The position numbers were made by a program, and so were the translations under genes. From Sipunculus nudus (Eukaryota; Annelida; Sipuncula; Golfingiida; Sipunculidae): a stretch of DNA of 64,000 nt. The stretch covers positions 53,487,812 to 53,551,811 of the forward strand of contig CM049314.1 of NCBI GenBank assembly GCA_026874595.1. The letters run 5' to 3'. Positions 23,651 through 58,836 of the stretch are shown one piece after another; positions within the stretch are counted from its first letter, which is position 1, and each line of letters opens with the position of its first letter. Under the pieces are notes generated by a model, which was given only the letters and a program-made list of their open reading frames with translations, was not told where the DNA came from and ran no database searches.

Positions 23651-23886
23651 TCACACTGGGTATATATCACATATCTTCATGTGGCTGTAACGATCAGTTT
23701 CTCCAAGAACAATAACCACACTCCCATATACCGGATTGATGCAATTCACTTTCTTTCTCGGTATTTTTTCCGACGGTGAGAATGCGACACTTCCGCAATG
23801 GTCGGATATGCTAGCAGATGGCGCCGTATGTCCCACTCTGTGGATTTCCTTTCCTACACGGACAGTCAAAGTGCCATCGTATTGTC
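23651..23886 (-). CDS. Exon 5: C-terminal half of the fucolectin-like domain, with stop
   Basis: The acceptor is ...ACTCGGTAG before GACAATACG; GA completes the Gly codon begun in exon 4. The exon reads QYDGTLTVRVG, then two Cys-containing segments, VVIVLGE, and MKICDIYPV before TGA (23653-23651). A VRVG strand, a central Cys pair and a C-terminal L-x-(L/I)-C-(E/D)-(V/I) strand match the second half of fucolectin/F5-8-like (FTP) domains. The open frame continues above 23886 but is intronic there. Confidence 0.7.
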
Positions 23887-24183
23887 CTACCGAGTAAAAC
23901 CATACATTCAAGCATTATAGGCTGAACGGTATGGTATAACATGTTACACAGTGACGACACCATGATGTCATATGCATAGCCTATATGTCAAAAACATTAA
24001 AACAGGTCATAGTGAATAACATTGCAAAGCCACACAATACGTAGTGCGGGTGTTTTAACAGAAGGAATTATGATTGCTTGCTGCACGGTATATTTAATTC
24101 AATGCTATTGCGCATAATTGTATCTTTAATTTATTCTATATTCTGTAAAAATTCGGTTATTTGAAAAAAAATCGACTACTAAC

Positions 24184-24819
24184 CTTTTATGTAGACTGCC
24201 CTGATGTCGCGACCAGACTGGAAATCAATGACGAGCCAGGACCGCGTCTCCAGTCCTGTCACGTGACATGTTCCAGTGTCGCCATCAGCTGCCAGACTGC
24301 CAGCGTAATTCCCCCATATGGTGCTGCTGTAGGCCGGTAGAAAGGGAGAAGGGACAGTTGTCTGGGGCAGTGTTGTTGGCCTGGACGGCTGTATGGTTGT
24401 AAGTATCTCCGATCCAAGCCGGCCCCCCACTGTCAGATCCATGTGCACGGGGAAAGTCTGACTGATCGTCTCTTCTAATGTTCTAGGTATAGTCGATGTG
24501 TGGAACGGGCTTTCAGTCGATTGCACGGTTGATGCGTGTGTCGTGTATGTATATGGAAATGTTGATACTTTAGTTGTCACGTGCTTGGTTGTGTAAGTAG
24601 ATGACACTGGGCCAGTTGTATGGTCAGTGGTCTTGGTTTTTACGAGACGAACTGTCGTTGCAGGCCTTTCACTTGATGTCTGCGTCCGTATGATCTCCCT
24701 ATCCCAGAATTCCGTAGTTGGTTGGCTATTGGATACGTTAATCTCGTGTGAGAATGTGGTTTCTGCTTTGGTAACCTGTTGGCCTGGCAGGACTGTCGTC
24801 GTAATCTCGTCTGGAACAG
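24184..24819 (-). CDS. Exon 4: mucin-like Thr/Ser-rich stalk and start of the fucolectin-like domain
   Basis: The acceptor is CTGAATTCAG before CTGTTCCAG; CT completes a codon whose first G comes from exon 3. About 160 residues rich in Thr, Ser and Pro follow (many TT, TTK, TTV and STxP patterns), a likely O-glycosylated spacer. The last 50 residues (IWGNYAGSLAADGDTGTCH.., SWLVIDF, IRAVYIKG) have the N(x)AG-LAxDGD..C and W-x-V/I-D-F/L signature of fucolectin/F5-8-like domains, where DGD-type turns often bind calcium. The donor is AAAAG/GTTAGT. Confidence 0.72.
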
Positions 24820-25587
24820 CTGAATTCAGAATTATCAACACTTAATGGAATACAGAATTGTCAGTACTTTAATCAGCATTAATATTCGGTTGGCCTACTC
24901 CGTAGCATGTTTACATGGACTCGCAACTGTTTAAGGCCGAGTCACTTTACAAGATACGGCACGTTACAACAAAATGCGATTTCAGTTGTAGAAAGCCAAG
25001 GGTATTCGTAAAAAGACCCAATATACGACAATTAAACGGTAATGGCAAGAGTAAAATCGGTCGTAATTAAGGAGACTTGTTCCTGTACAAAACCTCCCTA
25101 CAAATTACCCCTACACAAGCATAGTCGTTTGCAGTCAACCGATGGCAGAATATCATGCGACTCTTTTACGATGGTTTGACAATGTCGCAATCAAAAACAC
25201 GGCCCTACGACCAGTGATAGGTCGATCATAAAGGTGTTTGTTTATTGCTGCAATATATCAGCATAACCACATAAGAAAGACATGGATATTGTTACGTTCG
25301 TCCACAGGCGCTTAAATCCATATTTGTATAGGTATTGACTTAAATAATGTAAAAAATCGTTATAAACAATCCCCTACCCTATATTCAACGTTAAACCGAG
25401 ATATAACGCTGCCGGTACTTGTATAATAAAGAATTGACAAGGTCGGCATCCTCGTTTGCGAAATACTCTGCAGCCATTAAGGGACGAACAGATTGATTTA
25501 TCCAAGATTAATCTTTCCATGATTATCTACCAATAAGGTGGTAGTTTTCGGGGGGGGGGATCCTAACTTTGGACCTTGTTGCTGAAT

Positions 25588-25616
25588 CCACAACTGTGAT
25601 CAGATCACAGTTGTGG
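25588..25616. other. 29-base perfect palindrome in intron 3
   Basis: The arm CCACAACTGTGATC (25588-25601) and its exact reverse complement GATCACAGTTGTGG (25603-25616) flank a single A. A poly(G) run lies at about 25550-25559. Confidence 0.9.
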
Positions 25617-25859
25617 CCCTGACCTGTACACTGTGGCCGTGTTATTGTGAAATTGTAGACGGCCCAAAATAACTATTGGCATAAGCCCCAGAACAAGAAG
25701 AAAAGAGCAAATTATGACTTGTTAATGGTTGAATTTAATTAATAATCATTATTGTGATAGGATAATTGTACTCCTTACCCGTGAAATTTTATGTTTAGAC
25801 ACTAGGATTATTTTCTAAGTTACCTAGAGCCGAGCTTTTATCATACAATGTGTTTTTGC

Positions 25860-25892
25860 ATGACGGCCATCTTGAAATCCAAGATGGCTGCC
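25860..25892. repeat. Short hairpin repeat (GCCATCTTG/CAAGATGGC)
   Basis: GCCATCTTG-AAATC-CAAGATGGC is a 9-bp stem with a 5-base loop. A related sequence (GCCATTTTGAAATCCAATATGGCT) at about 32989 shows it belongs to a dispersed repeat. Confidence 0.65.
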
Positions 25893-26548
25893 ATAATGCA
25901 TTTTGAGGAAGTTCCTCCTATCAAAAACTGAAAGGTAAGGACATGAATAACACATGGATAAAGTTTGGTGCTTTTGTCCCGCATGTCTCCATCCTGCACA
26001 AATCTGGGTCAAAATAAGCCACCTGACTATTATGATTGTCAAGCCAGAAGTGCCTGGCTTGAAGCAGTAGTGCACCATATCTGTAGAAAGCTGAAATTTA
26101 GACACCGAGAGGTCCAGCATGGTTGAGCTGATAGGGTAACTCGAAAAGCGGCCTAATGGGAAGTCCATAGAATACAAGATGACTTAATTTTACATGCCAG
26201 AGTTGCGGGGAATTCTGGGAGAGATCCAATAACTGCTGCGTCACTATAACATCTCTCAATTTTACAACAGATGGCACTGCCAACCGCACGAGAATGCCAG
26301 CCAGTAATGCAACGACGGCAGAGTTTGAATTTGATGAAATAAAAACAAAAAAACATGCCGCCAGGTGACAGTACAACTGATGCCAGACCGACTGTAACGA
26401 TCAAAGGTTCCACGAACTGCTCAGTGGTATCAATGTTATTTATATTATATTTAGGCGTCTCGGTACTGACCAGTAACGTGGTCAAGGTTAGATAAATGTA
26501 CTGTAGTATTAGTGTAGGGGGTTATTATGTTGCATAAACTTCTTTAAC

Positions 26549-26617
26549 ATTTTTTAAACCAACGATTTTTGTTGTATCCTTAGACCCTTAAAAACTTAAA
26601 TCGTTGGTTTAAAAAAT
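26549..26617. other. Perfect 20-bp inverted repeat with 29-base loop
   Basis: ATTTTTTAAACCAACGATTT (26549-26568) is the exact reverse complement of AAATCGTTGGTTTAAAAAAT (26598-26617). It may be a tiny foldback element. Confidence 0.9.
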
Positions 26618-26680
26618 AGGGTTGGTTCCATTTTTCCCCTTAGATTTTATGGCAGTCATACTGGATTTAAAAATGGTTAC

Positions 26681-27701: not shown

Positions 27702-27756
<55 letters not shown>

Positions 27757-28560: not shown

Positions 28561-28644
28561 AATAAAATATATATGCACTTCTTATTTCTTAAGAATAATT
28601 AAAAACAAAACTAAATTAGCCCACTGATAGCCGCTTGAGTCGAA

Positions 28645-29032: not shown

Positions 29033-29189
29033 CATAACCAACAGTCTGAGACATGTGAGTGTCCGTTATATAACTGTCGCTTCTAATAAATAACCTTACA
29101 ACAGCATCTTCCATTTCCACAATAGAATATTAACTTTGAATCAATATCATCATTGTGGGTACTGTTAGCGCTCCTCTTTCCTTGGCGAT

Positions 29190-31740
29190 GGTCACTGCCT
29201 TTGGCAGTGTAAGCCCATGGATTCCAAATATCTACTGTAAGTATCCTTACACCTCTGTCTCTGCCGTCCCGGTGTCCACCTTCTCCCTATGTTCGTGAGT
29301 TCCCAGTGGAAGAGCTGAAACGGAATCCGCTTGGGATCCATCCGTTGTACATGATCGGACCAGCACAGTCCGATCCTTTTAAGCAAGGTGCTTGCATAAG
29401 ACTCCCATATCCTTTCCCGTATATCACTGTTCCTGAAATATTGCCACCACCCGATCTTTAGAATTATAAGGAAACATCGACTACCATAGGCGTCAAATCA
29501 TTGTTCTTGCTTTCGTATTGTTGACAATGTCTCGGCACCGTACAGCAGTGTTGGTTTGACCATTGTAGATCTTCTTCTTCGTCTCTTTGCCTTCATCTTC
29601 GTCTCCTTCTCTTTGCCTTCCAAGTTGATGAAAGCTGCCTAAAATAAATGCAATGGAAGCCTCACCCATGAGAATTGAGGTTATATGCCCTACTGAGTCT
29701 TCTGGCATGACTTTAGATCCTAGGTTACAGAAGCTCTGGACTTTTTCGACGATGTGCTCACCACTGACTTTTCTTGTGTATCACCAACAAACGGTTTATC
29801 CATCGATACAACCAGACCTACCTCCTCTCCAGCCCTTCTCGGTCTCACACGGGCATTTGATGCCTGCTTGTTCACAGATGTTATCAGTCATCAGATGAGT
29901 CACATCATCTGGAAAGTCCATGTCTGGCATTTGCCACCCTTCATTGATTACTCTTATAGTACGAATCCGTTTCCTCATCAGCAGACCATAATCTTCACAG
30001 GCTTTGTGTAGCACCCAGTCAATCAGCGGACCAAAAGGCAAAGATGACCACACACATCCGTACCTCTCTCCCGTCTTTATACTGAACCAGTCGGTTGTTT
30101 CTTTCCTAATCCTCACACTTGCTTGGCAACTGTTGTAAGTGCTTCAGATAAAGAAGCTTCTCCGGAATCCCAGATTCCCTCATGATCCTCCACAAACTTG
30201 GCCTGTTAATACTGTCAAATGCAGCTGTGAATCTAAGCCTGTTTTTTTTTTGTAAGCTCACATCCACTGCTTTCTATGTAGGATGATCCAAGCAAAGGCT
30301 TTCTCTGCCACTGAGCGTAAAGAGATGCCACGGTAGTTATTGCAATCTTTGATATCACCCTATTTGTACAACACTTTGAGCTTACTCTTGCGCCAGTCTT
30401 CTAGAATGTACTCCTCTGTCCAGATTTGCTAATAAAGATTTTCAAGGACTATTTTTCCCTCCTGCCTTCAAGGACTCTGCACTGACTTATTGTTTTTTCG
30501 GCTTGCAGATTGCCTTTTTCACCTATTTTAGAGTAGATATATCTATATCAATGTCCAAAACTTGAGCTTCAGTAGTTCAGGTGCGGTAACGCCTTGTAGG
30601 TGTTGGCCTATTTAGTAGCTCTTTCCATCTGTCCTTCACTTCTTCTTTATCTGTCAAGATGGATCCCTCCTTGCTCATTACTGACATGGGTTGGAGCGTG
30701 TTGGCGTAATGGATAGGTCGATGTGACCGCAGGGTCGTGGGTTCGCGTCCTGTTCTGACCTCCGTCAGCGCTAAGACTCCTAGGCAAAGTCTTTACCACA
30801 AGAGTGCGCTCTCTCGACCCAGGAGTGAATGGGTACTGGTCATGGGAGGAAGGAAAATGTAGGACGAATAACCTTCTCGCGCCTGATATGGCAGCTTGGG
30901 TTGTATGCTTCCCAGGGAGCCGAGAAAAGCTACAAGAATGAACAGACCCGAAAGACCAGGAAGGCAAAGTGTAAAGTCGGATGATATCAGACTATAAACT
31001 CCTACCTTTTTTATGGGTTGAGATGTTGATTTCCAACTCATTTTCTTGACCGGCTGGAATACTTTCCTTTGATTTTTCGTTTTAAAAGCATCCTCCAGAA
31101 CCACTGTTTCATACCAGTTTTGCTTGTCCCTTGGTGCACTTTTCTTCAATGGAACGTCTAGCTTTCTGTGGCCTCCACACTGGTGCTGGTTCTATCACTG
31201 TTCCTCTTGATATTTGCTACTCTTCTTTTCTCCACAAAATCATCCTCCTCAGCACTTATCTACTCTATCCTGTTGTGCTTCACTGGGTCTGAGGTGGTAC
31301 CCCCAGCTTTGATGATGCCATCCCTATCTTCCGTCACTCTTCCTCGGCGGTCTTTGAAGTGCTATCACTGCTGTTCTTCTTCTTAATTTCTTGCCTGAAG
31401 CCCTCCCCGATGTTATTCTTAATCTATTGTCTGTAGCTCTCCCTAATGCTCCTATATTTCAGCTTGAAGGATGCACAGCGTCTGGTCTGTCCCTTAGGCT
31501 TCGGGCGTGACTCCCTAACCTTGATGGTTCCTGCAAGTAGTAGTTTGTGGTCACTGTTTATGTCTGGACATCTACAGCTTCTGTAGTCTTTCAGGGAACT
31601 TTTCCATCTCGTATTGATGATCACATGGTTTATCTGAGCTTTTGTGTTGCTTGCTACGCTACTAGTCCATGTGTACTTGTGGATGGTCTTATTTTGGAGC
31701 AATGATGTTCCACAATAGTAAAATCATGGACGCTACAAGT
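29190..31740 (-). pseudogene. Second, degenerate non-LTR retrotransposon fragment (APE-type)
   Basis: Minus-strand pieces occur in the expected order. 31702-31424: endonuclease end with IHKYTWTS, QINHVIINTRW and SDHKLL. 31149-31020: PRDKQNWYE linker. After the SINE: ILTDKEEVKDRWKELLNRP, the usual segment before the RT. About 30330: NYRGISL. About 30215-30135: AFDSINRPSLWRIM. 30116-29796: CVWSSLPFGPLIDWVL and DFPDD at the FADD position. 29386-29192: the C-terminal DHVQRMD..RIP..L. Many stops and shifts show it is dead. It differs in sequence from the L1/Tx1-like LINE at 5-11 kb; clade not determined (RTE- or CR1-like is possible). Confidence 0.82.
30694..31012 (+). mobile_element. tRNA-derived SINE inserted in the LINE fragment
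   Basis: A pol III A box (TGGCGTAATGG, 30702-30712) and B box (GGTTCGCGTCC, 30740-30750) are spaced as in tRNA genes and tRNA-derived SINEs. ATGGGTTG at 30686-30693 and again at 31013-31020 fits an 8-bp target duplication, and removing the SINE reunites the LINE reading frame on both sides. The 3' end is T-rich. Confidence 0.82.
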
Positions 31741-33250: not shown

Positions 33251-33252
<2 letters not shown>

Positions 33253-34018: not shown

Positions 34019-35102
34019 CTCCTGCCCAGACTGCGTGACCGAATGCCACATCTGGTGACTTGAAATGAGCGTGCAGGTATCCAGCAAGTTTTACTGATGG
34101 GTCAGCGTGGGACAGTGTGTGACTTCCGTTCCCAACTTCAGTGACACCGTAACTATACGACTGGCTAGGAAATCTTTCCCAGTGTAACGATGCCAGGCTC
34201 TCTTTATCAAGAATAACTCCAGGCTCCTTTCCCGTGGGGACCACAATCCCCAGATAATATACGTCTGTTTCATTGGTTGGATCGATTACTGTCCGCCAGG
34301 ACATCGTGTTCACATAAAGTTTCAAGGGCAGAATATTTACAGCGAACGGGCCTGTGTCAGCCTTGTCTATGTTTCCCTTGTTAAACTGAACCACCATACA
34401 GGTACTGGAGCAATTGATCTCCAGCAGGGTATCATCTATCTTAACGTCAAGTTCCGAATATGAACCTGCTAGTAGAGCCTCGTTTTCGCCCGTAGATGTT
34501 TTCATGTGTGTCCCTGTCGGGGGTGGATACACGCGGACAAGGTATCCGTCCTTCCTGTCTCTTCCGCCTATTGGTGGTACATAATGAACTTTACCATATG
34601 AACTTATGGCTCGCACGGAGAGCTCCGTGTGCTCGCACGTATATCCTTTCTCTTGCGCGCACAAGTCTCCGGAGAATACAGCGACTGGTTTGTCTGTGAT
34701 CACGCGGTCACCATAACAGTCATCGTCCACCAGGAATGTCTCCAAACGGCTTATGGTTTTAGAGAAGATTTGAGTGTACTCCTCCGTATCCTCATCTAGC
34801 CGCTCTACCTGCACGTGGGTTTTGTCCGCCACCGCCACCACTGCGTACTCTGATGATCCTGCGTCATTGGAACACGGTATGACGAAGTGAGTGTCCTTGG
34901 CCGTGACGGGTAAAGACAGAAAAGCGTCACCACTGCTCCAATAAATGTTAACACCATGCACTATCACGTCCCCCGTTGTTGTTATCAATATGCCTTTACG
35001 CTCGATTACCTTTTTTGTTCTGTAAGCAGGACCAACGGATATATTCCTGAACTCACCGTTCGAAAGCATATATTTCTTGTCTGGGCTGTTGTACATACTG
35101 AC
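34019..35102 (-). CDS. Exon 3: most of the IgGFc-binding-type domain
   Basis: This 1084-base exon encodes 361 residues and one base. The acceptor is TTTCTTTTAACAG before GTCAGTATG and the donor GGAG/GTAAGAA. The protein shows the repetitive beta-rich pattern of the IgGFc-binding protein N-terminal domain: GILITTTGDVIVHGVN, SSGDAFLSLPV, THFVIPC, YAVVAVADKTHV, then DKPVAVFSGDLCAQ (the conserved KPVAVFSG-x-C segment), EHTELSVRAISSYGK followed by the HYVPPIGGR segment, CSSTCMVVQFNKG, and finally the PDVAFGHAVWAG segment just before the donor. The frame remains open past 34019 but that part is intronic. Length and motif order agree with the family. Ligand unknown. Confidence 0.85.
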
Positions 35103-35827: not shown

Positions 35828-36183
35828 GATGTTCTTGGGCTCACATCTAAGAACATGATGTTCTTGGGCTCACATCTACGAACATGATGTTCTTTGGCTC
35901 ACATCTACGAACATGATGTTTTTGGGCTCACATCTACGAACATGATGTTCTTGGGCTCACATCTACGAACATGATGTTCTTGGGCTCACATCTACGAACA
36001 TGATGTTCTTGGGCTCCATTTACGAACATGATGTTCTTGGGCTCACATCTACGAACATGATGTTCTTGGGCTCACATCTACGAACATGATGTTCTTGGGC
36101 TCACATCTACGAACATGATGTTCTTGGGCTCACATCTACGAACATGATGTTCTTGGGCTCATATCTACGAACATGATGTTCTT
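35828..36183 (+). repeat. 29-bp minisatellite with a perfect 13-bp dyad per unit, 12 units
   Basis: Units read GAACATGATGTTCTTGGGCT then CACATCTAC. GAACAT-G-ATGTTC is self-complementary and is perfect in 11 of 12 copies. The first copy is AGAACATGATGTTCT, the form of a 3-keto-steroid receptor palindrome (AGAACAnnnTGTTCT). The array lies in intron 2 of the lectin-like gene and abuts the 36.1-36.6 kb reading frame. Confidence 0.93.
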
Positions 36184-38629: not shown

Positions 38630-40891
38630 ACACCATTTTACAAAGCCTAACTTAGTTAGCTCTTACAGATATATGTATCGAAAAAGAAATACTAAAAATA
38701 AAAAAGAAATTATGTATAATAAAAAATCATAATACATACAGCTGGATGCAAAGCGATTGAATCTTTAGTAGTTATCTTAATGTTATCTGTGATTGGCTGC
38801 CACTTTGTCAGGAATAAGGACACAGGCTTTGTACATTTTTGTTAAGAATCCATTACTCCTGATTGTTTCATATTAAATACATCTCTGAGTTTGCTCCGCC
38901 ATTTTTCTGAATCTTTACAGTCAGAACTATTACTTACGATCGCATAAAAAAAATCTTCATAAAAATATTTACACTATTGCATTAATATACATTAAGATCT
39001 TGTTTTTATTTATAATTTTATATAGCAACAGTGCTTCCCTGCAAGAAAATCTGAAAGAGACGCTGTGAGAACTAAAAAGAACCTGATGATTTAATCATAA
39101 AAACCGTGAAAAACAGATTAACGAACACAAAAGCACCAACCGAATTAAATAATGTAATTAAACAGTATAAGCTGTAATTAAAAATTATACATGATAATTG
39201 TAACTGCTGTACATGTTTGTTCTTTCTCAGTTTTATATAACTTGAAACCTTTTGTAAATACTATGGCGCAAGACACTACTTATCCCGTACTGTACACTAC
39301 TGGTCTAATCCATGGAGCTTAGCCTTGCAAGAATCCCACAGTGATCAAATCATTTTGTAAATATTTGGTCTTCCATATTGTGGACAAATACATCACAATA
39401 TTTCAGACGGATAAGCATTAACCAAGTTGGTTCTTAATCTGTTATATTGTTTATGATTATTTAAATGTGTGTTCAAATTTCCCATGAGACGGCTTTCATT
39501 ACTTGAATAGAAAATTAACACCCTCCGGTTCGGAAGAATGTCTGTCCATCGTATAATTGAAGCCTTAGAATGAAAATAAAATTCAACCTTAACGCGAACA
39601 TGTGACAGCATATAGTAGCCATATACACATTATATACATATATAATGAAATGAACTATAAAAAATTGTCAAATAGACTAAACATGTATAACGTGTCATTC
39701 ATTTATTTTATGCACGGTCAAATCTTCATAATTATATCAAAAGATTTTTCATGAGTGTCAAGAACGTATTAATGCACTAGAAATTCAATGTGCATATCAT
39801 CTCGTAAAAACTTCAATTGGGAAAATATATAAGAAAAAGTTTTGAAATTCAATATTCTTTCAGGATATTTTATTAGTTTGTAAATACAATATAGTTGTTA
39901 TTGTGAATACGTCAAATTATATCCCCTGGGTGTTCTGAGTAAAGACGCGGTTGTCTTTAAATGGCCTAAAATATATCATAAAATAATTAATGTTGATATC
40001 TTAATTCTTTAACTAAACATGCTTAGGGGCCTTAAATTTAAAAAAAGTCATAAAATCCCAGAGTTGGTGCACGGTCTTTACACAGAACTTATATATTGAT
40101 CACATTCTTATGAATTAAGACGGTAAACAGGCGAAAGATGTAAGGAACCAGAATATAGCTCATGCAAAAGTCTATATTGTGCTCATATATGCTGTGTATA
40201 CACTATAGGGGGGGGGGGGGGGGGGATTACAGTGTCAATTCTCAACATGCCTCTTTGCGCGTTGTTATGTTTAACAGGACAACAATATAGAAATTATCAC
40301 TAAACTTAAAATGAATAATTAACGGACGGATTTACGTTTTCCGAATAATACCATCTGAAATAAAACTACACGTTTAACACCAAAAAGTGCACCGAAACTA
40401 TCCCTATACATCGCACCATTACAGTCTATATTTTCAGAAAGTTTTACGCCATGCATTGGAGGGTTATACCCTCCAATATTTTCCCCTCAGCCCCCCTCTA
40501 CAACCCCCCCCCCCCTCCCTACATCCTAATTTTCAAATCCTGCTTCTGACCCTGTGTTTGTTTTGACATTGATATAATCTATACAGGTAATACATGCATG
40601 GATATTATTTGTCGACAAAATTCATTTTGTGGTTTTCTTAAAGCTAAATGAAAGGTTGTATACGTGTCATAACACAATAAAAATATGACCTTCTCCTGGC
40701 ATTTTACCCATGTGTCTAGTGATGTACACTTGATAATTCTCCCTGGTTAACCGGCCGTCGAGGGTTACATTATAATGATATAATATTAATTAGTTTTCAA
40801 TTATTATATTATTAATTATATATTATTAATTATTAATGATGTAATATAAGGCCCTGGTTAACTGACAGATACAGTGCCACCATACACTGAC
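38628..40891. other. Intron 2 sequence without recognised features
   Basis: AT-rich intronic DNA. The only notable item is an 18-base G run at 40208-40225. No exon was recognised. Confidence 0.5.
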
Positions 40892-41019
40892 CTTGACCGA
40901 GACGTTGTCCTGCTGGGCCGTGATCATTAAGTACGACATGTTGTACTGCGGACCCGGCATTGACTTCACGTCAAGAAACACCACCGCATATGTCATTTCT
41001 GATTCTTTGCTGGCTGTAA
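40892..41019 (-). CDS. Exon 2: start of the IgGFc-binding-type domain
   Basis: The acceptor is TATGTCTTTCCAG before TTACAGCC and the donor GTCAAG/GTCAGT. TT completes a Val codon begun in exon 1, and the exon ends on a codon boundary, matching exon 3. The residues (T)ASKESEMTYAVVFLD, NMSYLMITA and DNVSVKVS match the first strands of IgGFc-binding domains (G-x2-F-x-(V/L)-x-F, L-x-(I/L)-x-I-T, V-x-V). The exon is only 128 bases and is easily missed. Confidence 0.8.
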
Positions 41020-43142: not shown

Positions 43143-43722
43143 GCTAAAACAGAGTTTTGCGCCTCACACAACCATTTTTGCACAGCGTCTGTCTGTTTTG
43201 TCTGCCGTGGGATAAAATCACTCATATCTCGGCAGTGGTTTGACTTATCTGCCTAAAAAATTGCAGGTTTATACATCTTGGATAGCTTTCTGGATTTTGA
43301 GGCAGGTGGCGCAACCTTTATTTATGTTTACGCTGCAGACATCCTGGCTTATATCTCAGGACTGGTTTGCTGTATCCTCCTGAAATTTTGCATGTGTATA
43401 GATCTAACATAGCCCTTTTTCATACGCAAAACTGGAGGCGCCAAGTGCCACCATTTTTGCACAACGTCCGTCTGTTTGTCTGCTGTGGGATAAAATCACT
43501 CATATCTCAGTAGTGGGTTGATTTATCTGCCTAAAGTTTTGCATGTTTGTACATCTTGGGTAGCCTTTTTATTTTGTGGCAGGTGGCGCCACCTACATAC
43601 ACATTTGGGCTGCAGACATCCATGGTGATATGCAACACACCTCACTCTGTTTCCCCTTGCCACTCGATCCATGCCTCACTTCATCCGTCCCACTCGTGTT
43701 TCGGCGGATACACGTAGTCGCT
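43143..43722 (+). mobile_element. Truncated family a array copy
   Basis: About two 278-bp units (AACCATTTTTGCACAGCGTC; AGGTGGCGCCACCTACAT at 43581) are followed by a tail (GCAACACACCTCACTCTGTT, then CACTCGATCCATGCCTCACT and ACACGTAGTCGCTTG) that matches 15571-15665 of copy A. The match ends exactly where the 38-bp array begins. Confidence 0.8.
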
Positions 43723-46700
43723 TGTATTACTGAGGTACTAACCCAGGGTGTATACATTCTTAAATTACTGTGGTACTAACCCAGGGTGTATACATTCTTG
43801 AATTACTGTGGTACTAACCCAGGGTGTATACATTCTTAAATTACTGTGGTACTAACCCAGGGTGTATACATTCTTAAATTACTGTGGTACTAACCCAGGG
43901 TGTATACATTCTTAAATTACTGTGGTACTAACCCAGGGTGTATACATTCTTATATTACTGTGGTACTAACCCAGGGTGTATACATTCTTATATTACTGTG
44001 GTACTAACCCAGGGTGTATACATTCTTAAATTACTGTGGTACTAACCCAGGGTGTATACATTCTTAAATTACTGTGGTACTAACCCAGGGTGTATCCATT
44101 CTTATATCACTGTGTGATAACCCTGGGTGTATACATTCTTATATTACTGTGGTACTAACCCAGGGTGTATACATTCTTATATTACTGTGTGCTAACCCAG
44201 GATGTATACAATTTTTATATTACTGTGGTACTAACCCAGGGTGTATACATTCTTATATTACTGTGGTACTAACCCAGGGTGTATACATTCTTATATTACT
44301 GTGGTACTAACCCAGGGTGTATACATTCTTATATTACTGTGGTGCTAACCCAGGGTGTATACATTCTTATATTACTGTGTGCTAACCCAGGATGTATACA
44401 TTCTTATATTACTGAGGTACTAACCCAGAGTGTATACATTCTTATATTACTGTGGTACTAACCCAGGGTGTATACATTCTTATATTACTGTGGTACTAAC
44501 CCAGGGTGTATACATTCTTATATTACTGTGGTACTAACCCAGGGTGTATACATTCTTAAATTACTGTGGTACTAACCCAGGGTGTATACATTCTTAAATT
44601 ACTGTGGTACTAACCCAGGGTGTATACATTCTTATATTACTGTGGTACTAACCCAGGGTGTATACACTATTATATTCCTGTGGTACTAACCCAGGGTGTA
44701 TACATTCTTATATTAACCCAGCACTGTGTGCTAACCCAGGATGTATACATTCTTATATTACTGAGGTACTTACCCAGAGTGTATACATTCTTATATTACT
44801 GTGGTACTAACCCAGGGTGTATACATTCTTATATTACTGTGGTACTAACCCAGGGTGTATACATTCTTATATTACTGTGGTACTAACCCAGGGTGTATAC
44901 ATTCTTATATTACTGTGGTACTAACCAAGGGGGTATACATTCTTATATTACTGTGGTACTAACCCAGGGTGTATACATTCTTATATTACTGTGGTACTAA
45001 CCCAGGGTGTATACATTCTTATATTACTGTGGTACTAACCCAGAGTGTATACATTCCTTTATTACTGTGTGCTAACCCAGGATGTATACATTCTTATATT
45101 ACTGAGGTACTAACCCAGAGTGTATACATTCTTATATTACTGTGGTACTAACCCAGGGTGTATACATTCTTATATTACTGTGGTACTAACCCAGGGTGTA
45201 TACATTCTTATATTACTGTGGTACTAACCCAGGGTGTATACATTCTTATATTACTGTGGTACTAACCCAGGGTGTATACATTCTTATATTACTGTGGTAC
45301 TAACCCAGGGTGTATACATTCTTATATTACTGTGGTACTAACCCAGGGTGTATACATTCTTATATTACTGTGGTACTAACCCAGAGTGTATACATTCTTA
45401 TATTACTGTGTGCTAACCCAGGATGTATACATTCTTATATTACTGAGGTACTAACCCAGGGTGTATACATTCTTATATTACTGTGGTACTAACCCAGGGT
45501 GTATACATTCTTATATTAATGTGGTACTAACCCAGGGTGTATACATTCTTATATTACTGTGGTACTAACCCAGGGTGTATACATTCTTATATTACTGTGG
45601 TACTAACCCAGGGTGTATACATTCTTATATTACTGTGGTACTAACCCAGGGTGTATACATTCTTATATTACTGTGGTACTAACCCAGGGTGTATACATTC
45701 TTATATTACTGTGGTACTAACCCAGGGTGTATACATTCTTATATTACTGTGGTACTAACCCAGGGTGTATACATTCTTATATTACTGTGGTACTAACCCA
45801 GAGTGTATACATTCTTATATTACTGTGTGCTAACCCAGGATGTATACATTCTTATATTACTGAGGTACTAACCCAGAGTGTATACATTCTTATATTACTG
45901 TGGTACTAACCCAGGGTGTATACATTCTTATATTACTGTGGTACTAACCCAGGGTGTATACATTCTTATATTACTGTGGTACTAACCCAGGGTGTATACA
46001 TTCTTATATTACTGTGGTACTAACCCAGGGTGTATACATTCTTATATTACTGTGGTACTAACCCAGGGTGTATACATTCTTAAATTACTGTGGTACTAAC
46101 CCAGGGTGTATACATTCTTAAATTACTGTGGTACTAACCCAGGGTGTATACATTCTTAAATTACTGAGGTACTAACCCAGGGTGTATACATTCTTATATT
46201 ACTGTGGTGCTAACCCAGGGTGTATACATTCTTATATTACTGTGTGCTAACCCAGGATGTATACATTCTTATATTACTGTGGTACTAACCCAGGGTGTAT
46301 ACATTCTTATATTACTGTGGTACTTACCCAGGGTGTATACATTCTTATATTACTGTGGTACTAACCCAGGGTGTATACATTCTTATATTACTGTGGTACT
46401 AACCCAGGGTGTATACATTCTTATATTACTGTGGTACTAACCCAGGGTGTATACATTCTTAAATTACTGTGGTACTAACCCAGGGTGTATACATTCTTAT
46501 ATTACTGTGGTACTAACCCAGGGTGTATACATTCTTAAATTACTGTGGTACTAACCCAGGGTGTATACATTCTTAAATTACTGTGGTACTAACCCAGGGT
46601 GTATACAGTCTTATATCACTGTGTGATAACCCTGGGTGTATACATTCTTATATTACTGTGGTACTAACCCAGGGTGTATACATTCTTATATTACTGTGTG

Positions 46701-49700
46701 CTAACCCAGGATGTATACAATTTTTATATTACTGTGGTACTAACCCAGGGTGTATACATTCTTATATTACTGTGGTACTAACCCAGGGTGTATACATTCT
46801 TATATTACTGAGGTTCTAACACACAGTGTATACATTCTTATATTACTCTTGTACTAATCCAGAGTGTATACATTCTTATATTACTGTGGTACTAACCCAG
46901 AGTGTATACATTCTTACATTACTGTGGTACTAACCCAGGGTGTATACATTCTTATCTTATTGAGGTACTAACCCAGGGTGTATACATTCTTATATTACTG
47001 TGGTACTAACCCAGGGTGTATACATTCTTATATTACTGAGGTACTAACCAGGGGTGTATACATTCTTATATTACTGAGGTACTAACCCAGGGTGTAAACA
47101 TTCTTATATTACTGTAGTACTAACCCAGGGTGTATACATTCTTATATTACTGTGGTACTAACCAGGGGTGTATACATTCTTATATTACTGTGGTACTAAC
47201 CAGTGGTGTATACATTCTTATATTACTGAGGTAATAACACAGAGTGTATACATTCTTATATTACTCTTGTACTAACCCAGGGTGTATACATTCTTATATT
47301 ACTGTGGTATTAACCCAGAGTGTATACATTCTTACATTACTGTGGTACTAACCCAGGGTGTATATATTCTTATCTTACTGAGGTACTAACCCAGGGTGTA
47401 TACATTCTTATATTACTGTGGTACTAACCCAGGGTGTATACATTCTTATATTACTGTGTGCTAACCCAGGATGTATACAATTTTTATATTACTGTGGTAC
47501 TAACCCAGGGTGTATACATTCTTATATTACTGTGGTACTAACCCAGGGTGTATACATTCTTATATTACTGAGGTTCTAACACACAGTGTATACATTCTTA
47601 TATTACTCTTGTACTAATCCAGAGTGTATACTTTCTTATATTACTGTGGTACTAACCCAGAGTGTATACATTCTTACATTACTGTGGTACTAACCCAGGG
47701 TGTATACATTCTTATCTTATTGAGGTACTAACCCAGGGTGTATACATTCTTATATTACTGTGGTACTAACCCAGGGTGTATACATTCTTATATTACTGAG
47801 GTACTAACCAGGGGTGTATACATTCTTATATTACTGAGGTACTAACCCAGGGTGTAAACATTCTTATATTACTGTAGTACTAACCCAGGGTGTATACATT
47901 CTTATATTACTGTGGTACTAACCAGGGGTGTATACATTCTTATATTACTGTGGTACTAACCAGTGGTGTATACATTCTTATATTACTGAGGTAATAACAC
48001 AGAGTGTATACATTCTTATATTACTCTTGTACTAACCCAGGGTGTATACATTCTTATATTACTGTGGTATTAACCCAGAGTGTATACATTCTTACATTAC
48101 TGTAGTACTAACCCAGGGTGTATATATTCTTATCTTACTGAGGTACTAACCCAGGGTGTATACATTCTTATCTTACTGAGGTACTAACCCAGGGTGTATA
48201 CATTCTTATCTTACTGAGGTACTAACCCAGAGTGTATACATTCTTACATTACTGTGGTACTAACCCAGGGTGTATACATTCTTACATTACTGAGGTACTA
48301 ACCCAGGGTGTATACATTCTTATATTACTGTGGTATTAACCCAGAAGGTATACATTCTTACATTACTGTGGTACTAACCCAGGGTGTATACATTCTTATC
48401 TTACTGAGGTACTAACCCAGGGTGTATACATTCTTATCTTACTGAGGTACTAACCCAGGGTGTATACATTCTTATCTTACTGAGGTACTAACCCAGGGTG
48501 TATACATTCTTATATTACTGTGTGCTAACCCAGGATGGATACAATTTTTATATTACTGTGGTACTAACCCAGGGTGTATACATTCTTATATTACTGTGGT
48601 ACTAACCAGGGGTGTATACATTCTTATATTACTGTGGTACTAACCAGTGGTGTATACATTCTTATATTACTGAGGTAATAACACAGAGTGTATACATTCT
48701 TATATTACTCTTGTACTAACCCAGGGTGTATACATTCTTATATTACTGTGGTATTAACCCAGAGTGTATACATTCTTACATTACTGTGGTACTAACCCAG
48801 GGTGTATACATTCTTATCTTACTGAGGTACTAACCCAGGGTGTATACATTCTTATCTTACTGAGGTACTAACCCAGGGTGTATACATTCTTATCTTACTG
48901 AGGTACTAACCCAGAGTGTATACATTCTTACATTACTGTGGTACTAACCCAGGGTGTATACATTCTTATCTTACTGAGGTACTAACCCAGGGTGTATACA
49001 TTCTTATATTACTGTGGTACTAACCCAGGGTGTATACATTCTTATATTACTGTGGTACTAACCCAGGGTGTATACATTCTTATATTACTGTGGTACTAAC
49101 CCAGGGTGTATACATTCTTATATTACTGTGGTACTAACCCAGGGTGTATACATTCTTATATTACTGAGGTACTAACCCAGGGTGTATACATTCTTATATT
49201 ACTAAAGTACTAACCAAGGGTGTATACATTCTTATATTACTGAGGTACTAACCCAGGGTGTATACATTCTTATATTACTGTGGTGCTAACCCAGGGTGTA
49301 TACATTCTTATATTACTGAGGTACTAACCCAGGGGTGTATACATTCTTATATTACTGTGGTACTAACTCAGGGTGTATAAATTCATATATCACTGTGTGA
49401 TTACCCAGGGTGTATACATTCTCATATTACTGTGGTACTAACCCAGGGTGTATACATTCTTAAATTACTGTGGTACTAACCCAGGGTGTATACATTCTTA
49501 TATTACTGTGGTACTAACCCAGGATGTATACATTCTTATATTACTGTGGTGCTAACCCAGAGTGTATACATTCTTATATTACTGTGGTACTAACCCAGGG
49601 TGTATACATTCTTAAATTACTGTGGTACTAACCCAGGGTGTATACATTCTTAAATTACTGTGGTACTAACCCAGGGTGTATACATTCTTAAATTACTGTG

Positions 49701-52700
49701 GTACTAACCCAGGGTGTATACATTCTTATATTACTGTGGTACTAACCCAGGGTGTATACATTCTTAAATTACTGTGGTACTAACCCAGGGTGTATACATT
49801 CTTAAATTACTGTGGTACTAACCCAGGGTGTATACATTCTTAAATTACTGTGGTACTAACCCAGGGTGTATACATTCTTAAATTACTGTGGTACTAACCC
49901 AGGGTGTATACATTCTTATATTACTGTGGTACTAACCCAGGGTGTATACATTCTTATATTACTGTGGTACTAACCCAGGGTGTATACATTCTTATATTAC
50001 TGTGGTACTAACCCAGGGTGTATACATTCTTAAATTACTGTGGTACTAACCCAGGGTGTATACATTCTTAAATTACTGTGGTACTAACCCAGGGTGTATA
50101 CATTCTTATATCACTGTGTGATAACCCTGGGTGTATACATTCTTATATTACTGTGGTACTAACCCAGGGTGTATACATTCTTATATTACTGTGTGCTAAC
50201 CCAGGATGTATACAATTTTTATATTACTGTGGTACTAACCCAGGGTGTATACATTCTTATATTACTGTGGTACTAACCCAGGGTGTATACATTCTTATAT
50301 TACTGTGGTACTAACCCAGGGTGTATACATTCTTATATTACTGTGATGCTAACCCAGGGTGTATACATTCTTATATTACTGTGTGCTAACCCAGGATGTA
50401 TACATTCTTATATTACTGAGGTACTAACCCAGAGTGTATACATTCTTATATTACTGTGGTACTAACCCAGGGTGTATACATTCTTATATTACTGTGGTAC
50501 TAACCCAGGGTGTATACATTCTTATATTACTGTGGTACTAACCCAGGGTGTATACATTCTTAAATTACTGTGGTACTAACCCAGGGTGTATACATTCTTA
50601 AATTACTGTGGTACTAACCCAGGGTGTATACATTCTTATATTACTGTGGTACTAACCCAGGGTGTATACACTATTATATTCCTGTGGTACTAACCCAGGG
50701 TGTATACATTCTTATATTAACCCAGCACTGTGTGCTAACCCAGGATGTATACATTCTTATATTACTGAGGTACTAACCCAGAGTGTATACATTCTTATAT
50801 TACTGTGGTACTAACCCAGGGTGTATACATTCTTATATTACTGTGGTACTAACCCAGGGTGTATACATTCTTATATTACTGTGGTACTAACCCAGGGTGT
50901 ATACATTCTTATATTACTGTTGTACTAACCAAGGGGGTATACATTCTTATATTACTGTGGTACTAACCCAGGGTGTATACATTCTTATATTACTGTGGTA
51001 CTAACCCAGGGTGTATACATTCTTATATTACTGTGGTACTAACCCAGAGTGTATACATTCCTTTATTACTGTGTGCTAACCCAGGATGTATACATTCTTA
51101 TATTACTGAGGTACTAACCCAGAGTGTATACATTCTTATATTACTGTGGTACTAACCCAGGGTGTATACATTCTTATATTACTGTGGTACTAACCCAGGG
51201 TGTATACATTCTTATATTACTGTGGTACTAACCCAGGGTGTATACATTCTTATATTACTGTGGTACTAACCCAGGGTGTATACATTCTTATATTACTGTG
51301 GTACTAACCCAGGGTGTATACATTCTTATATTACTGTGGTACTAACCCAGGGTGTATACATTCTTATATTACTGTGGTACTAACCCAGAGTGTATACATT
51401 CTTATATTACTGTGTGCTAACCCAGGATGTATACATTCTTATATTACTGAGGTACTAACCCAGAGTGTATACATTCTTATATTACTGTGGTACTAACCCA
51501 GGGTGTATACATTCTTATATTACTGTGGTACTAACCCAGGGTGTATACATTCTTATATTACTGTGGTACTAACCCAGGGTGTATACATTCTTATATTACT
51601 GTGGTACTAACCCAGGGTGTATACATTCTTATATTACTGTGGTACTAACCCAGGGTGTATACATTCTTATATTACTGTGGTACTAACCCAGGGTGTATAC
51701 ATTCTTATATTACTGTGGTACTAACCCAGGGTGTATACATTCTTATATTACTGTGGTACTAACCCAGGGTGTATACATTCTTATATTACTGTGGTACTAA
51801 CCCAGAGTGTATACATTCTTATATTACTGTGGTACTAACCCAGGGTGTATACATTCTTATATTACTGTGGTACTAACCCAGGGTGTATACATTCTTATAT
51901 TACTGTGTGCTAACCCAGGATGTATACATTCTTATATTACTGAGGTACTAACCCAGAGTGTATACATTCTTATATTACTGTGGTACTAACCCAGGGTGTA
52001 TACATTCTTATATTAATGTGGTACTAACCCAGGGTGTATACATTCTTATATTACTGTGGTACTAACCCAGGGTGTATACATTCTTATATTACTGTGGTAC
52101 TAACCCAGGGTGTATACATTCTTATATTACTGTGGTACTAACCCAGGGTGTATACATTCTTATATTACTGTGGTACTAACCCAGGGTGTATACATTCTTA
52201 TAATACTGTGGTACTAACCCAGGGTGTATACATTCTTATATTACTGTGGTACTAACCCAGGGTGTATACATTCTTATATTACTGTGGTACTAACCCAGAG
52301 TGTATACATTCTTATATTACTGTGTGCTAACCCAGGATGTATACATTCTTATATTACTGAGGTACTAACCCAGAGTGTATACATTCTTATATTACTGTGG
52401 TACTAACCCAGGGTGTATACATTCTTATATTACTGTGGTACTAACCCAGGGTGTATACATTCTTATATTACTGTGGTACTAACCCAGGGTGTATACATTC
52501 TTATATTACTGTGGTACTAACCCAGGGTGTATACATTCTTATATTACTGTGGTACTAACCCAGGGTGTATACATTCTTATATTACTGTGGTACTAACCCA
52601 GGGTGTATACATTCTTATATTACTGTGGTACTAACCCAGAGTGTATACATTCTTATATTACTGTGTGCTAACCCAGGATGTATACATTCTTATATTACTG

Positions 52701-55700
52701 AGGTACTAACCCAGAGTGTATACATTCTTATATTACTGTGGTACTAACCCAGGGTGTATACATTCTTATATTACTGTGGTACTAACCCAGGATGTATACA
52801 TTATTATATTACTGAGGTACTAACCCAGGGTGTATACATTCTTATATTTCTGTGGTACTAACCCAGGGTGTATACATTCTTATATTACTGTGGTACTAAC
52901 CCAGGGTGTATACATTCTTATATTACTGTGGTACTAACCCAGGGTGTATACATTCTTATATTACTGTGGTACTAACCCAGGGTGTATACATTCTTATATT
53001 ACTGTGGTACTAACCCAGGGTGTATACATTCTTATATTACTGTGGTACTAACCCAGGGTGTATACATTCTTATATTACTGTGGTACTAACCCAGGGTGTA
53101 TACATTCTTATATTACTGTGGTACTAACCCAGGGTGTATACATTCTTAAATTACTGTGGTACTAACCCAGGGTGTATACATTCTTATATTACTGTGGTAC
53201 TAACCCAGGGTGTATACATTCTTAAATTACTGTGGTACTAACCCAGGGTGTATACATTCTTAAATTACTGTGGTACTAACCCAGGGTGTATACATTCTTA
53301 AATTACTGTGGTACTAACCCAGGGTGTATACATTCTTAAATTACTGAGGTACTAACCCAGGGTGTATACATTCTTATATTACTGTGGTGCTAACCCAGGG
53401 TGTATACATTCTTATATTACTGTGTGCTAACCCAGGATGTATACATTCTTATATTACTGTGGTACTAACCCAGGGTGTATACATTCTTATATTACTGTGG
53501 TACTTACCCAGGGTGTATACATTCTTATATTACTGTGGTACTAACCCAGGGTGTATACATTCTTATATTACTGTGGTACTAACCCAGGGTGTATACATTC
53601 TTAAATTACTGTGGTACTAACCCAGGGTGTATACATTCTTAAATTACTGTGGTACTAACCCAGGGTGTATACAGTCTTATATCACTGTGTGATAACCCTG
53701 GGTGTATACATTCTTATATTACTGTGGTACTAACCCAGGGTGTATACATTCTTATATTACTGTGTGCTAACCCAGGATGTATACAATTTTTATATTACTG
53801 TGGTACTAACCCAGGGTGTATACATTCTTATATTACTGTGGTACTAACCCAGGGTGTATACATTCTTATATTACTGAGGTTCTAACACACAGTGTATACA
53901 TTCTTATATTACTCTTGTACTAATCCAGAGTGTATACATTCTTATATTACTGTGGTACTAACCCAGAGTGTATACATTCTTACATTACTGTGGTACTAAC
54001 CCAGGGTGTATACATTCTTATCTTATTGAGGTACTAACCCAGGGTGTATACATTCTTATATTACTGTGGTACTAACCCAGGGTGTATACATTCTTATATT
54101 ACTGAGGTACTAACCAGGGGTGTATACATTCTTATATTACTGAGGTACTAACCCAGGGTGTAAACATTCTTATATTACTGTAGTACTAACCCAGGGTGTA
54201 TACATTCTTATATTACTGTGGTACTAACCAGGGGTGTATACATTCTTATATTACTGTGGTACTAACCAGTGGTGTATACATTCTTATATTACTGAGGTAA
54301 TAACACAGAGTGTATACATTCTTATATTACTCTTGTACTAACCCAGGGTGTATACATTCTTATATTACTGTGGTATTAACCCAGAGTGTATACATTCTTA
54401 CATTACTGTGGTACTAACCCAGGGTGTATATATTCTTATCTTACTGAGGTACTAACCCAGGGTGTATACATTCTTATATTACTGTGGTACTAACCCAGGG
54501 TGTATACATTCTTATATTACTGTGTGCTAACCCAGGATGTATACAATTTTTATATTACTGTGGTACTAACCCAGGGTGTATACATTCTTATATTACTGTG
54601 GTACTAACCCAGGGTGTATACATTCTTATATTACTGAGGTTCTAACACACAGTGTATACATTCTTATATTACTCTTGTACTAATCCAGAGTGTATACTTT
54701 CTTATATTACTGTGGTACTAACCCAGAGTGTATACATTCTTACATTACTGTGGTACTAACCCAGGGTGTATACATTCTTATCTTATTGAGGTACTAACCC
54801 AGGGTGTATACATTCTTATATTACTGTGGTACTAACCCAGGGTGTATACATTCTTATATTACTGAGGTACTAACCAGGGGTGTATACATTCTTATATTAC
54901 TGAGGTACTAACCCAGGGTGTAAACATTCTTATATTACTGTAGTACTAACCCAGGGTGTATACATTCTTATATTACTGTGGTACTAACCAGGGGTGTATA
55001 CATTCTTATATTACTGTGGTACTAACCAGTGGTGTATACATTCTTATATTACTGAGGTAATAACACAGAGTGTATACATTCTTATATTACTCTTGTACTA
55101 ACCCAGGGTGTATACATTCTTATATTACTGTGGTATTAACCCAGAGTGTATACATTCTTACATTACTGTGGTACTAACCCAGGGTGTATATATTCTTATC
55201 TTACTGAGGTACTAACCCAGGGTGTATACATTCTTATCTTACTGAGGTACTAACCCAGGGTGTATACATTCTTATCTTACTGAGGTTCTAACCCAGAGTG
55301 TATACATTCTTACATTACTGTGGTACTAACCCAGGGTGTATACATTCTTACATTACTGAGGTACTAACCCAGGGTGTATACATTCTTATATTACTGTGGT
55401 ATTAACCCAGAAGGTATACATTCTTACATTACTGTGGTACTAACCCAGGGTGTATACATTCTTATCTTACTGAGGTACTAACCCAGGGTGTATACATTCT
55501 TATCTTACTGAGGTACTAACCCAGGGTGTATACATTCTTATCTTACTGAGGTACTAACCCAGGGTGTATACATTCTTATATTACTGTGTGCTAACCCAGG
55601 ATGGATACAATTTTTATATTACTGTGGTACTAACCCAGGGTGTATACATTCTTATATTACTGTGGTACTAACCAGGGGTGTATACATTCTTATATTACTG

Positions 55701-57776
55701 TGGTACTAACCAGTGGTGTATACATTCTTATATTACTGAGGTAATAACACAGAGTGTATACATTCTTATATTACTCTTGTACTAACCCAGGGTGTATACA
55801 TTCTTATATTACTGTGGTATTAACCCAGAGTGTATACATTCTTACATTACTGTGGTACTAACCCAGGGTGTATACATTCTTATCTTACTGAGGTACTAAC
55901 CCAGGGTGTATACATTCTTATCTTACTGAGGTACTAACCCAGGGTGTATACATTCTTATCTTACTGAGGTACTAACCCAGAGTGTATACATTCTTACATT
56001 ACTGTGGTACTAACCCAGGGTGTATACATTCTTATCTTACTGAGGTACTAACCCAGGGTGTATACATTCTTATATTACTGTGGTACTAACCCAGGGTGTA
56101 TACATTCTTATATTACTGTGGTACTAACCCAGGGTGTATACATTCTTATATTACTGTGGTACTAACCCAGGGTGTATACATTCTTATATTACTGTGGTAC
56201 TAACCCAGGGTGTATACATTCTTATATTACTGAGGTACTAACCCAGGGTGTATACATTCTTATATTACTAAAGTACTAACCAAGGGTGTATACATTCTTA
56301 TATTACTGAGGTACTAACCCAGGGTGTATACATTCTTATATTACTGTGGTGCTAACCCAGGGTGTATTCATTCTTATATTACTGAGGTACTAACCCAGGG
56401 TTTATACATTCTTATATTACTAAAGTACTAACCGAGGGTGTATACATTCTTATGTTACTGTGGTGCTAACCCAGGGTGTATACATTCTGATATTTGTTTG
56501 GTGCTAACCCGTTTTGTATACATTCTAATATTACTGTGGTGCTAACAGAGGTTGTTTACATTCTTATATTACTGTGGTGCTAACCAATTGTGTATGCATT
56601 CTAATTTTACTGTGGTGCTAACCCAGGGTGTATACATCCTTATATTACTGTGATACTAACTCAAGGTGTAAACATTCTGTGTGCTAACCCTAAGTGTATA
56701 CATTCTGTGTTCTTACCCAAAGTGTATACATTCTTAAATTTTTGTGATGCTAACTCAGGATGTAAAAATTCTTATAATTCTGTCCTGTTAACCCGTGTTG
56801 TATTCATTCTTATTTTACTGTGGTTCTAACCCATGTTGTATCCATTCTTATATTACTGTGGTGCTACCCCGTGTTGTATTTATTCTTATATTACTGTGGT
56901 GCTAACCCGTGTTGTATTGATTCTTATATTACTGTGGTGCTAACCCGTGTTGTATTTATTCTTATATTACTGTGGTGCTTACCCGTGTTGTATCCATTCT
57001 TATATTACTGTGGTGCTAACCCATGTTGTATTTATTCTTATATTACTGTGGTGCTAACCCGTGTTGTATACATTCTTATTTTACTGTGGTTCTAACCCGT
57101 GTTGTATCCATTCTTATATTACTGTGGTGCTAACCCGTGTTGTATCCATTCTTATATTACTGTGGTGCTAACCCGTGTTGTATCCATTCTTATATTACTG
57201 TGGTTCTAACCCGTGTTGTATCCATTCTTATATTACTGTGGTGCTAACCCGTGTTGTATTTATTCTCATATTACTGTGGTGCTAACCTGTGTTGTATCCA
57301 TTCTTATATTACTGTGGTGCTAACCCGTGTTGTATCCATTCTTATATTACTATGGTGCTAACCCGTGTTGTATTTATTCTTATATTACTGTGGTGCTAAC
57401 CCGTGTTGTATTCATTCTTATTTTACTGTGGTTCTAACCCGAGTTGTATCCATTCTTATATTACTGTGATGCTAACCCGTGTTGTATCCATTCTTATATT
57501 ACTGTCGTGCTAACCCGTGTTGTATCCATTCTTATATTACTGTGGTGCTAACGCTTGTAGTATTTATTCTTATATTACTGTGGTGCTAACCCGTGTTGTA
57601 TTCATTCTTATTTTTTTGTGGTTCTAACCCGTGTTGTACCCATTCTTATATTATTGTGGTGCCAGTGCAGGGTGTATACATTCTTATATTATTGTGGTGC
57701 TAACCCATGGTAGTACATTCTGGTGTCACTGTGGTGCTAACCCGGCCAATGTGTATACATTCTTATATTACTGTAG
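43723..57776. repeat. 14-kb array of 38-bp units filling intron 1
   Basis: About 370 units (from length) of ATTACTGTGGTACTAACCCA then GGGTGTATACATTCTTAT. Each contains the self-complementary TGTATACA. Unit variants (GTGTGCTAACCCAGGATG; GAGGTTCTAACACACAGTG; ACCAGTGGTG; AAAGTACTAACCAAGGG) recur in the same order 7,066 bp apart (46809/53875, 48331/55397, 49201/56267), so much of the array is one large duplicated block. A 762-bp duplication lies inside each block (46809/47571). From about 56.5 kb to the right end the units are a distinct, more diverged subfamily with CCCGTGTTGTATCCATTC. As 38 is not a multiple of three, the 60-91-codon frames inside are not genes. Confidence 0.96.
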
Positions 57777-57925
57777 CCCTGAAACATACAGGGTAGACAG
57801 TGCAATTAGAGAAAAAAACTATTAGCAGCGTCACTTTGGACACCAGCCATGGTCAGACATGACACATTCAGGTCAGACTTTAAGAAGCTGACGTAATTGT
57901 GATCCGTTAATACTTATGTACTCAC

Positions 57926-57977
57926 CCACGTGACATACGACGAAGCCCACAAGGGAAAGCATCCACAATGACGTCAT
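57926..57977 (-). CDS. Exon 1 (coding): signal peptide
   Basis: ATG at 57977-57975 starts MTSLWMLSLVGFVVCHV, a hydrophobic secretion signal. The donor GTGG/GTGAGTAC leaves one base of a codon, completed by TT at the start of exon 2. Upstream, a long T-run and TAG before GGAAACC (58003/58002) look like an acceptor, so a non-coding 5' UTR exon may lie further right. The assignment to this gene rests on phase, strand, the signal peptide and the missing start in exon 2. Confidence 0.65.
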
Positions 57978-58836
57978 TCTGGAGTATTCCTTCGGGGTTT
58001 CCCTAAAAAAAAAACGAACGGACATTTTAGATTCCAGGTTGATTTGCTCCCCACTATCACCAGTGTGTCACCATCTGTGAAAACTTTTTTCTATAATTTT
58101 CATTTCGAGTTTCTTTTTCAAATCCAAATGCATGAGTAGATACAATGGTTATAAATGACATTAAACTGCGTGGCTACGTATGCTCTCACCACCAACAACT
58201 ATTGCTCTTTCAGTTTGCAATGTAACAGCTTCCGTTACATTTTTTCTGTATGTCAGTATTGGCTCATGTACCCTGAACTAGTAGGCACGATGTAGATAAA
58301 AGGCTCACATATCAGTCACGGAGGCGTTGTAAGAACCTCTCTTAGCAGGGATTACTTTCATTTCTTTGATATGCATGCAGGGTAAGCCGGAAATCATGTC
58401 AATTCAATAAATAAGGCATGCAGCGGGAATAGTGTAGTCAGCACCAAAATAGAGCGGTTTGCAGAAACTAAATCATGAAGATAGTACCGTTATCGAGATA
58501 AGACTTAATGATTTATTATTAAGACAGGTTGACAAAAGATAATCTGAGATAAAGTCACGGATTTTTGGGCCATTTTGGTTAATACAAAAGCTTCACCTGT
58601 TTTATACGCTGTTATGGTTCTGTGTGTGAGTATACACACATTTCACGTTTGTCTAACATTACCATGACTGTGTGACCAGAGGTCCGATTAATCTTATGCA
58701 CGGGAGATAATTACCAAAAAAGGAGAACAAACATGAAAGAGGAAACACGGAAGTACCACCGGTCTAAAGCTTGAAAAATCATTAAGTTGTGTGGGGTGCG
58801 CCTTATGTTTATGTTTTGCGCCATTGATCACGCCTG
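57978..58836 (-). other. 5' flank of the lectin-like gene
   Basis: This should contain the 5' UTR, a possible 5' UTR intron (acceptor at 58003) and the promoter. I could not identify a convincing TATA box or initiator. Confidence 0.4.

Follow-up and report, generated by a model that had tools for sequence, protein, structure and literature searches.

On balance, we read five minus-strand exons in a 64-kb window of the Sipunculus nudus genome (contig CM049314.1, positions 53,487,812 to 53,551,811; 37.9% GC) as one animal gene, the product of which would comprise a signal peptide, an IgGFc-binding-type domain, a Thr/Ser-rich stalk and a diverged F5/8 type C tail. This product would be a secreted modular glycoprotein, most likely residing in mucus, in an adhesive or in a matrix. 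The window denotes the whole stretch analyzed, and positions are counted from its first nucleotide. A Pfam search with the whole predicted protein returned IgGFc_binding (PF17517) at E 2.8e-32 and 112.6 bits, against a curated cut-off of 25.6, and thereby bore out the IgGFc-binding-type domain that a preliminary description of this DNA had named, together with a profile search as the means to check it. The match covers residues 119–395 and profile positions 1–290 of 297, forms a single stretch with no tandem copies and is encoded entirely by exon 3. The gene itself is credible but gives the impression of an unremarkable member of a family that occurs widely; in its present form the result is an annotation.

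Gene model

The exons and the first polyadenylation signal are placed as follows.

Exon 1, 57926..58002, minus strand: 25 nt of presumed 5′ untranslated region (UTR) and 52 coding nt; donor gtgagt
Exon 2, 40892..41019, minus strand: 128 nt; putative N-terminal strand region of the IgGFc-type domain
Exon 3, 34019..35102, minus strand: 1084 nt; IgGFc_binding domain (PF17517); donor gtaaga
Exon 4, 24184..24819, minus strand: 636 nt; Thr/Ser-rich stalk and first half of the F5/8 type C-like domain
Exon 5, 23651..23886, minus strand: 236 nt with the stop codon TGA; would supply the other half of the F5/8 type C-like domain
First polyadenylation signal, AATAAA, 23523..23528, minus strand: 122 nt past the stop

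All five exons have AG/GT borders, and at the predicted junctions they join in phase to give 711 codons and a TGA stop, with a coding sum of 2,136 nt (52 + 128 + 1084 + 636 + 236). The preliminary description had likewise reported five minus-strand exons of compatible phases and 712 codons including the stop, and this account holds: its 58002 is the 5′ end of exon 1, and its 52 bases are the length of the coding part, which occupies 57926–57977 and begins with the ATG at 57977–57975. That a multi-exon gene is overlooked by simple open reading frame (ORF) calling is normal for an animal. Sequence features of this kind suggest that the five exons are spliced into one chain, and phase and splice sites point to a join of 34019 with 24819.

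The open frames of exons 3 and 4 are far longer than expected by chance. In random sequence at 37.9% GC, the probability of an open frame per start point is 1.6e-11 for the 361 codons of exon 3 and 4.6e-7 for the 212 codons of exon 4, with weaker values for exon 5 (78 codons, 0.005) and exon 2 (42 codons, 0.06). The open frame of exon 4 is listed at 24179–24841 including its stop, so it is bounded by stops no more than 22 nt upstream and 5 nt downstream from the splice sites.

Three in-phase border choices exist for exon 2 (40892–41019, 40886–41013 and 40886–41019). The first is preferred because of its better donor, AAG/gtcagt at 40892, which agrees with 8 of 9 consensus positions under either of two consensus forms, as compared to 5 of 9 for the donor at 40886. 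With a donor of at least 8 and a tract of at least 11, limits that were chosen post hoc with the exon already seen, exon 2 is the sole open exon of 60–330 nt leading from phase 1 to phase 0 on both strands of the window. Looser limits (donor at least 7, tract at least 10) admit nine such open exons on the minus strand and four on the plus strand. At these looser limits no strong phase-symmetric cassette exon was found in introns 1–3, and a scan with stricter limits gave none in introns 1–4; weak cassette exons (donor at least 6, tract at least 9) number 7 in intron 3, 21 in intron 2 and 1 in intron 1.

Exon 1 encodes MTSLWMLSLVGFVVCHV, which is signal-peptide-like, and its 5′ end at 58002 lies behind a polypyrimidine-AG acceptor at 58003 (tccgttcgttttttttttag). 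This acceptor would imply an additional upstream 5′ UTR exon. The frame of exon 1 is also open upstream across the presumed acceptor (57978–58067, minus strand) and includes another in-frame ATG (MSVRFFFRETPKEYSR preceding MTSLW), which makes an unspliced start further upstream an alternative to splicing at 58003.

Predicted protein and its homologs

Relatives of the N-terminal domain were found in bacteria. A tblastn search with exon 3 returned one Bernardetia plasmid record (E 0.6, 84% of the query), which led on to a Pontibacter protein; a phage record matching over 25 residues at E 4 was taken as chance. Scanning viral contigs with exon 3 gave 13 pattern stretches and bacterial genome contigs with the bacterial relative L001 gave 78, none of them a relative. 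In a second contig scan with an alignment (A2), 261 of 291 pattern stretches proved to be relatives, and the best 80 of these 261 were used as bacterial loci. The 80 are mostly titled Bacteroidota, although the name of the family comes from a mucus protein of animals. PF17517 was present in all four bacterial relatives checked (L001, L002, L003 and L010; E 1.7e-63 to 6e-41). The window protein thus has the same Pfam domain as these Bacteroidota proteins and is 18% identical to L002 (alignment A1); the bacterial proteins differ in what follows PF17517, which is Ig_7 in L001 and the type IX secretion signal CHU_C in L002. Sequence searches of solved structures returned nothing relevant (5 and 3 matches, all at E 0.38 or worse), and a profile of 35 rows gave no match among solved structures up to E 1.

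Three Pfam families matched the window protein up to E 10, and VWD, C8, TIL, EGF and chitin-binding domains were not among them. Known PF17517 proteins (IgGFcBD, IPR035234) resemble it in having the domain behind a signal-like N-terminus, presumably in an extracellular setting. Compared with these and with an FCGBP-type mucus protein, it differs in having no matched VWD, C8 or TIL and in carrying an F5/8 type C-like C-terminus.

The preliminary description had also proposed a secreted protein with a Thr/Ser-rich stalk. The stalk is there, with 56 Thr and Ser residues (40 Thr and 16 Ser, next to 14 Pro) in the 161 residues that we delimited, and it is probably disordered and O-glycosylated. A repeat scan reported no tandem repeat within exon 4 (24184–24819), and the whole protein has seven N-X-S/T sites. 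As for secretion, the hydrophobic N-terminus is observed (hydropathy 1.79 over residues 1–19) and no membrane-like segment follows it, the 19-residue hydropathy maximum beyond residue 40 being 0.98; from hydropathy, a secreted, non-membrane protein is predicted.

Several results weigh against a single gene of this composition. F5/8 type C (PF00754) matches the whole protein at 20.5 bits (E 5.5e-4), below its gathering cut-off of 28.2, and the match covers profile positions 5–59 of 127, which correspond to the exon 4 part and roughly six residues from exon 5. Neither exon 2 (profile and pairwise tests, Pfam) nor exon 5 (Pfam) obtained homology support of its own. Third-position GC differs among exons 1 to 5 (0.71, 0.70, 0.51, 0.50 and 0.42); because exons 1 and 2 are short we draw no inference from this difference, which does not favor the chain either. 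A 14-kb array fills most of intron 1, and the link between exon 1 and exon 2 therefore rests on the assembly. The predicted structure of exon 3 alone, from an alignment with 32 of the 80 bacterial loci, reached a mean predicted local distance difference test (pLDDT) of 58.1 and a predicted template modeling score (pTM) of 0.51, and a Foldseek search of the PDB with this model gave 0 matches at E ≤ 0.001 among 1372 with E ≤ 10, of which the best 50 were inspected. With a poor model and no fold match, there is no structural support for a mechanism, and no fold is claimed.

Exon 2 was tested against bacterial PF17517 relatives by profile, pairwise and anchored-profile comparison. A profile of all the bacterial sequences (82 of 82) detected exon 3 weakly (E 0.0039) and did not report exon 2 at any E value up to 10. 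Adding exon 2 to exon 3 left the score unchanged at 13.8, a value reached by 19 of 500 shuffles. In the pairwise comparisons with L001 and with L002, all 1000 of 1000 shuffles scored at least as high as the real exon in each case, as did 103 of 200 against the anchored profile, which was built from the 23 sequences (of 82) retained by a motif filter. Judged by eye, the presumed first strand (TYAVVF here, EFWVGF in L001) lies 92 residues from the Pfam start in the window protein and 94 in L001, an agreement in spacing that is compatible with the assignment of exon 2 but is not proof of it.

The tail is best described as a putative diverged F5/8 type C (discoidin-fold) domain. Its exon 4 part alone matches F5/8 type C at E 2.3e-4, and the isolated C-terminal domain reaches 23.4 bits (E 7e-5), still below the cut-off of 28.2; this query was one proline short near its start, upstream of the point where the match begins. 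F-type lectins have the fucose motif HX24RXDX4(R/K) and the cation motif h2DGx (PMC5712786). The tail resembles them, and fucolectins, in its weak F5/8 type C similarity and in h2DGx, found as AADGD at residue 598. It differs in that HX24RXDX4(R/K) has no match in the last 135 residues, as an exact or a relaxed pattern, and in that the second half of the domain is unrecognized, exon 5 alone matching no related Pfam family. Glycan binding through the fucolectin site, as the preliminary description would have it, is thus not supported, and of its C-terminal fucolectin-like domain there remains a sub-cutoff match in the exon 4 part that covers about half of the profile. Together with the missing fucose motif, this makes discoidin-like the better name; lectin activity of the tail is unproven.

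Proposed function and rival readings

By analogy with animal proteins of similar name or composition, the product of the five-exon gene may serve as a mucus, adhesive or matrix component. IgGFc-domain proteins are described as widespread, and the frog glue protein PRIT combines IgGFcBD with disordered glycosylated repeats and works with a galectin (PMC11237159). IgGFc-named proteins occur in oyster larvae (as pediveliger candidates) and in mucus (PMC6337334), and the BLAST relatives of limpet adhesive proteins include an IgGFc-binding protein (PMC7333891). In the mechanism that we propose, the protein would be built into mucus, an adhesive or a shell or other extracellular matrix. The beta-rich IgGFc domain would provide rigid, possibly self-associating modules and the stalk would confer hydration and extension. 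The C-terminal domain would tether the protein to a surface, a lipid or a glycan by means other than the canonical fucose site.

Immune and shell-matrix roles are the main functional rivals. In the first, which we regard as unlikely, the protein would be a secreted, opsonin-like recognition protein of haemolymph or mucus whose C-terminal domain recognizes microbial glycans. F-type lectins do function in immune recognition (PMC5712786), but the tail is without the canonical fucose motif. A Manila clam gene named FCGBP changes strongly after lipopolysaccharide (LPS) and peptidoglycan (PGN), yet the tabulated values are negative (-9.374 and -8.78), i.e., they show no induction (PMC7430831). No feature of the locus itself points to immunity.

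A second rival concerns the gene model and seems to us more doubtful still. Here, two neighboring genes or alternative 3′ ends are involved: exons 1–3 would end in another terminal exon and encode an IgGFc protein without the tail, and exons 4 and 5 would form a separate stalk-lectin gene. The join of 34019 to 24819 does span 9.2 kb, backed by phase and splice sites alone, the frame of exon 3 continues for 77 nt beyond its donor before a stop, and IgGFc domains pair with various partners in the proteins reported (PMC11237159, PMC6337334). Exon 4, however, opens with an internal phase-1 acceptor whose phase fits, and no strong cassette exon lies between exons 3 and 4. The Pfam check of this interval covered four ORFs, none of which matched: 30796–31191 and 26156–26521 (E limit 1), and 29799–30143 and 29195–29497 (E limit 10). 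The least probable of the rivals is a shell- or calcified-matrix protein, a role suggested by an abalone "Uncharacterized/IgGFc-binding protein" with chitin-binding, Sushi, galectin_CRP and FA58C_3 domains (PMC6003135) and by a grove snail shell protein similar to IgGFc-binding protein, also with chitin-binding domains (PMC4023409), but no chitin-binding domain was matched here by Pfam, and the name in the abalone and snail tables need not mean PF17517.

Returning to the one-gene reading, two further known systems are close to it in composition. Frog PRIT is similar in that IgGFcBD is joined to long disordered glycosylated stretches, and PRIT-Dg has lost its VWD modules (PMC11237159); it differs in having many tandem IgGFcBD copies and a separate galectin partner, whereas the window protein has one IgGFcBD and a lectin-like tail in cis. 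It is conceivable, though we think it improbable, that the window protein unites on one chain what the frog glue divides between two components, namely IgGFcBD, a glycosylated stalk and, as its anchor, a lectin fold whose ligand site is altered and takes something other than fucose. The abalone protein CLC_3878/idb_2768 shares the IgGFc-binding-like listing, a signal peptide and an FA58C domain, and differs in its four chitin-binding domains, Sushi and galectin; this comparison is by listing, and PF17517 is not stated in the passage describing it (PMC6003135). For the pairing of IgGFc with an F5/8 type C domain, a combination that the preliminary description thought may be undescribed, this shell protein from abalone is a possible, partial precedent. 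In the open-licence PMC literature this was the only paper found to pair "IgGFc" with "FA58C", and no report was found there of an IgGFc domain paired with F5/8 type C or an F-type lectin under other names.

If transcribed as predicted, the gene would add one more architecture to the IgGFc-domain proteins of animal mucus, glue and shell, in which this domain has yet to be assigned a proven role. If the IgGFc domain and a lectin-fold tail are indeed linked in cis, it could be asked in a simple system whether this domain is enough to assemble mucus.

Surroundings of the gene

The array in intron 1 is a 38-bp minisatellite of ~370 copies over 14,054 bp (43721–57774), with a secondary periodicity near 6.8–7.1 kb, and 151 bp separate it from the coding part of exon 1. 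Its repeat unit folds no better than shuffles (z -1.26). Intron 2 holds a 29-bp tandem repeat at 35828–36183 (12.3 copies, 96% matches).

A scan for bacterial-type promoters near exon 1 found 4 sites where 1.6 were expected, which is uninformative for an animal gene. Across the window, Rfam at gathering scores and a tRNA scan each returned 0 matches. Two overlapping minus-strand ORFs at 63465–63999, one of 92 codons and a second of at least 134 that leaves the window, look protein-like; Pfam gave neither of them a match up to E 1. A broken non-long terminal repeat (non-LTR) retrotransposon occupies 5858–9657 and 10416–11334 (minus strand), in which RVT_1 (E 2.4e-18) and zf-RVT (E 4.2e-8) fall in different frames; its other frames and its long interspersed nuclear element (LINE) class are by-eye readings. 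These retrotransposon remains, the structure of the gene and its types of domain by themselves point to an animal source. Long ORFs of up to 385 codons on both strands of 19317–20518 were rejected as an annotation trap, as they arise from a 39-bp tandem repeat of 21.7 copies.

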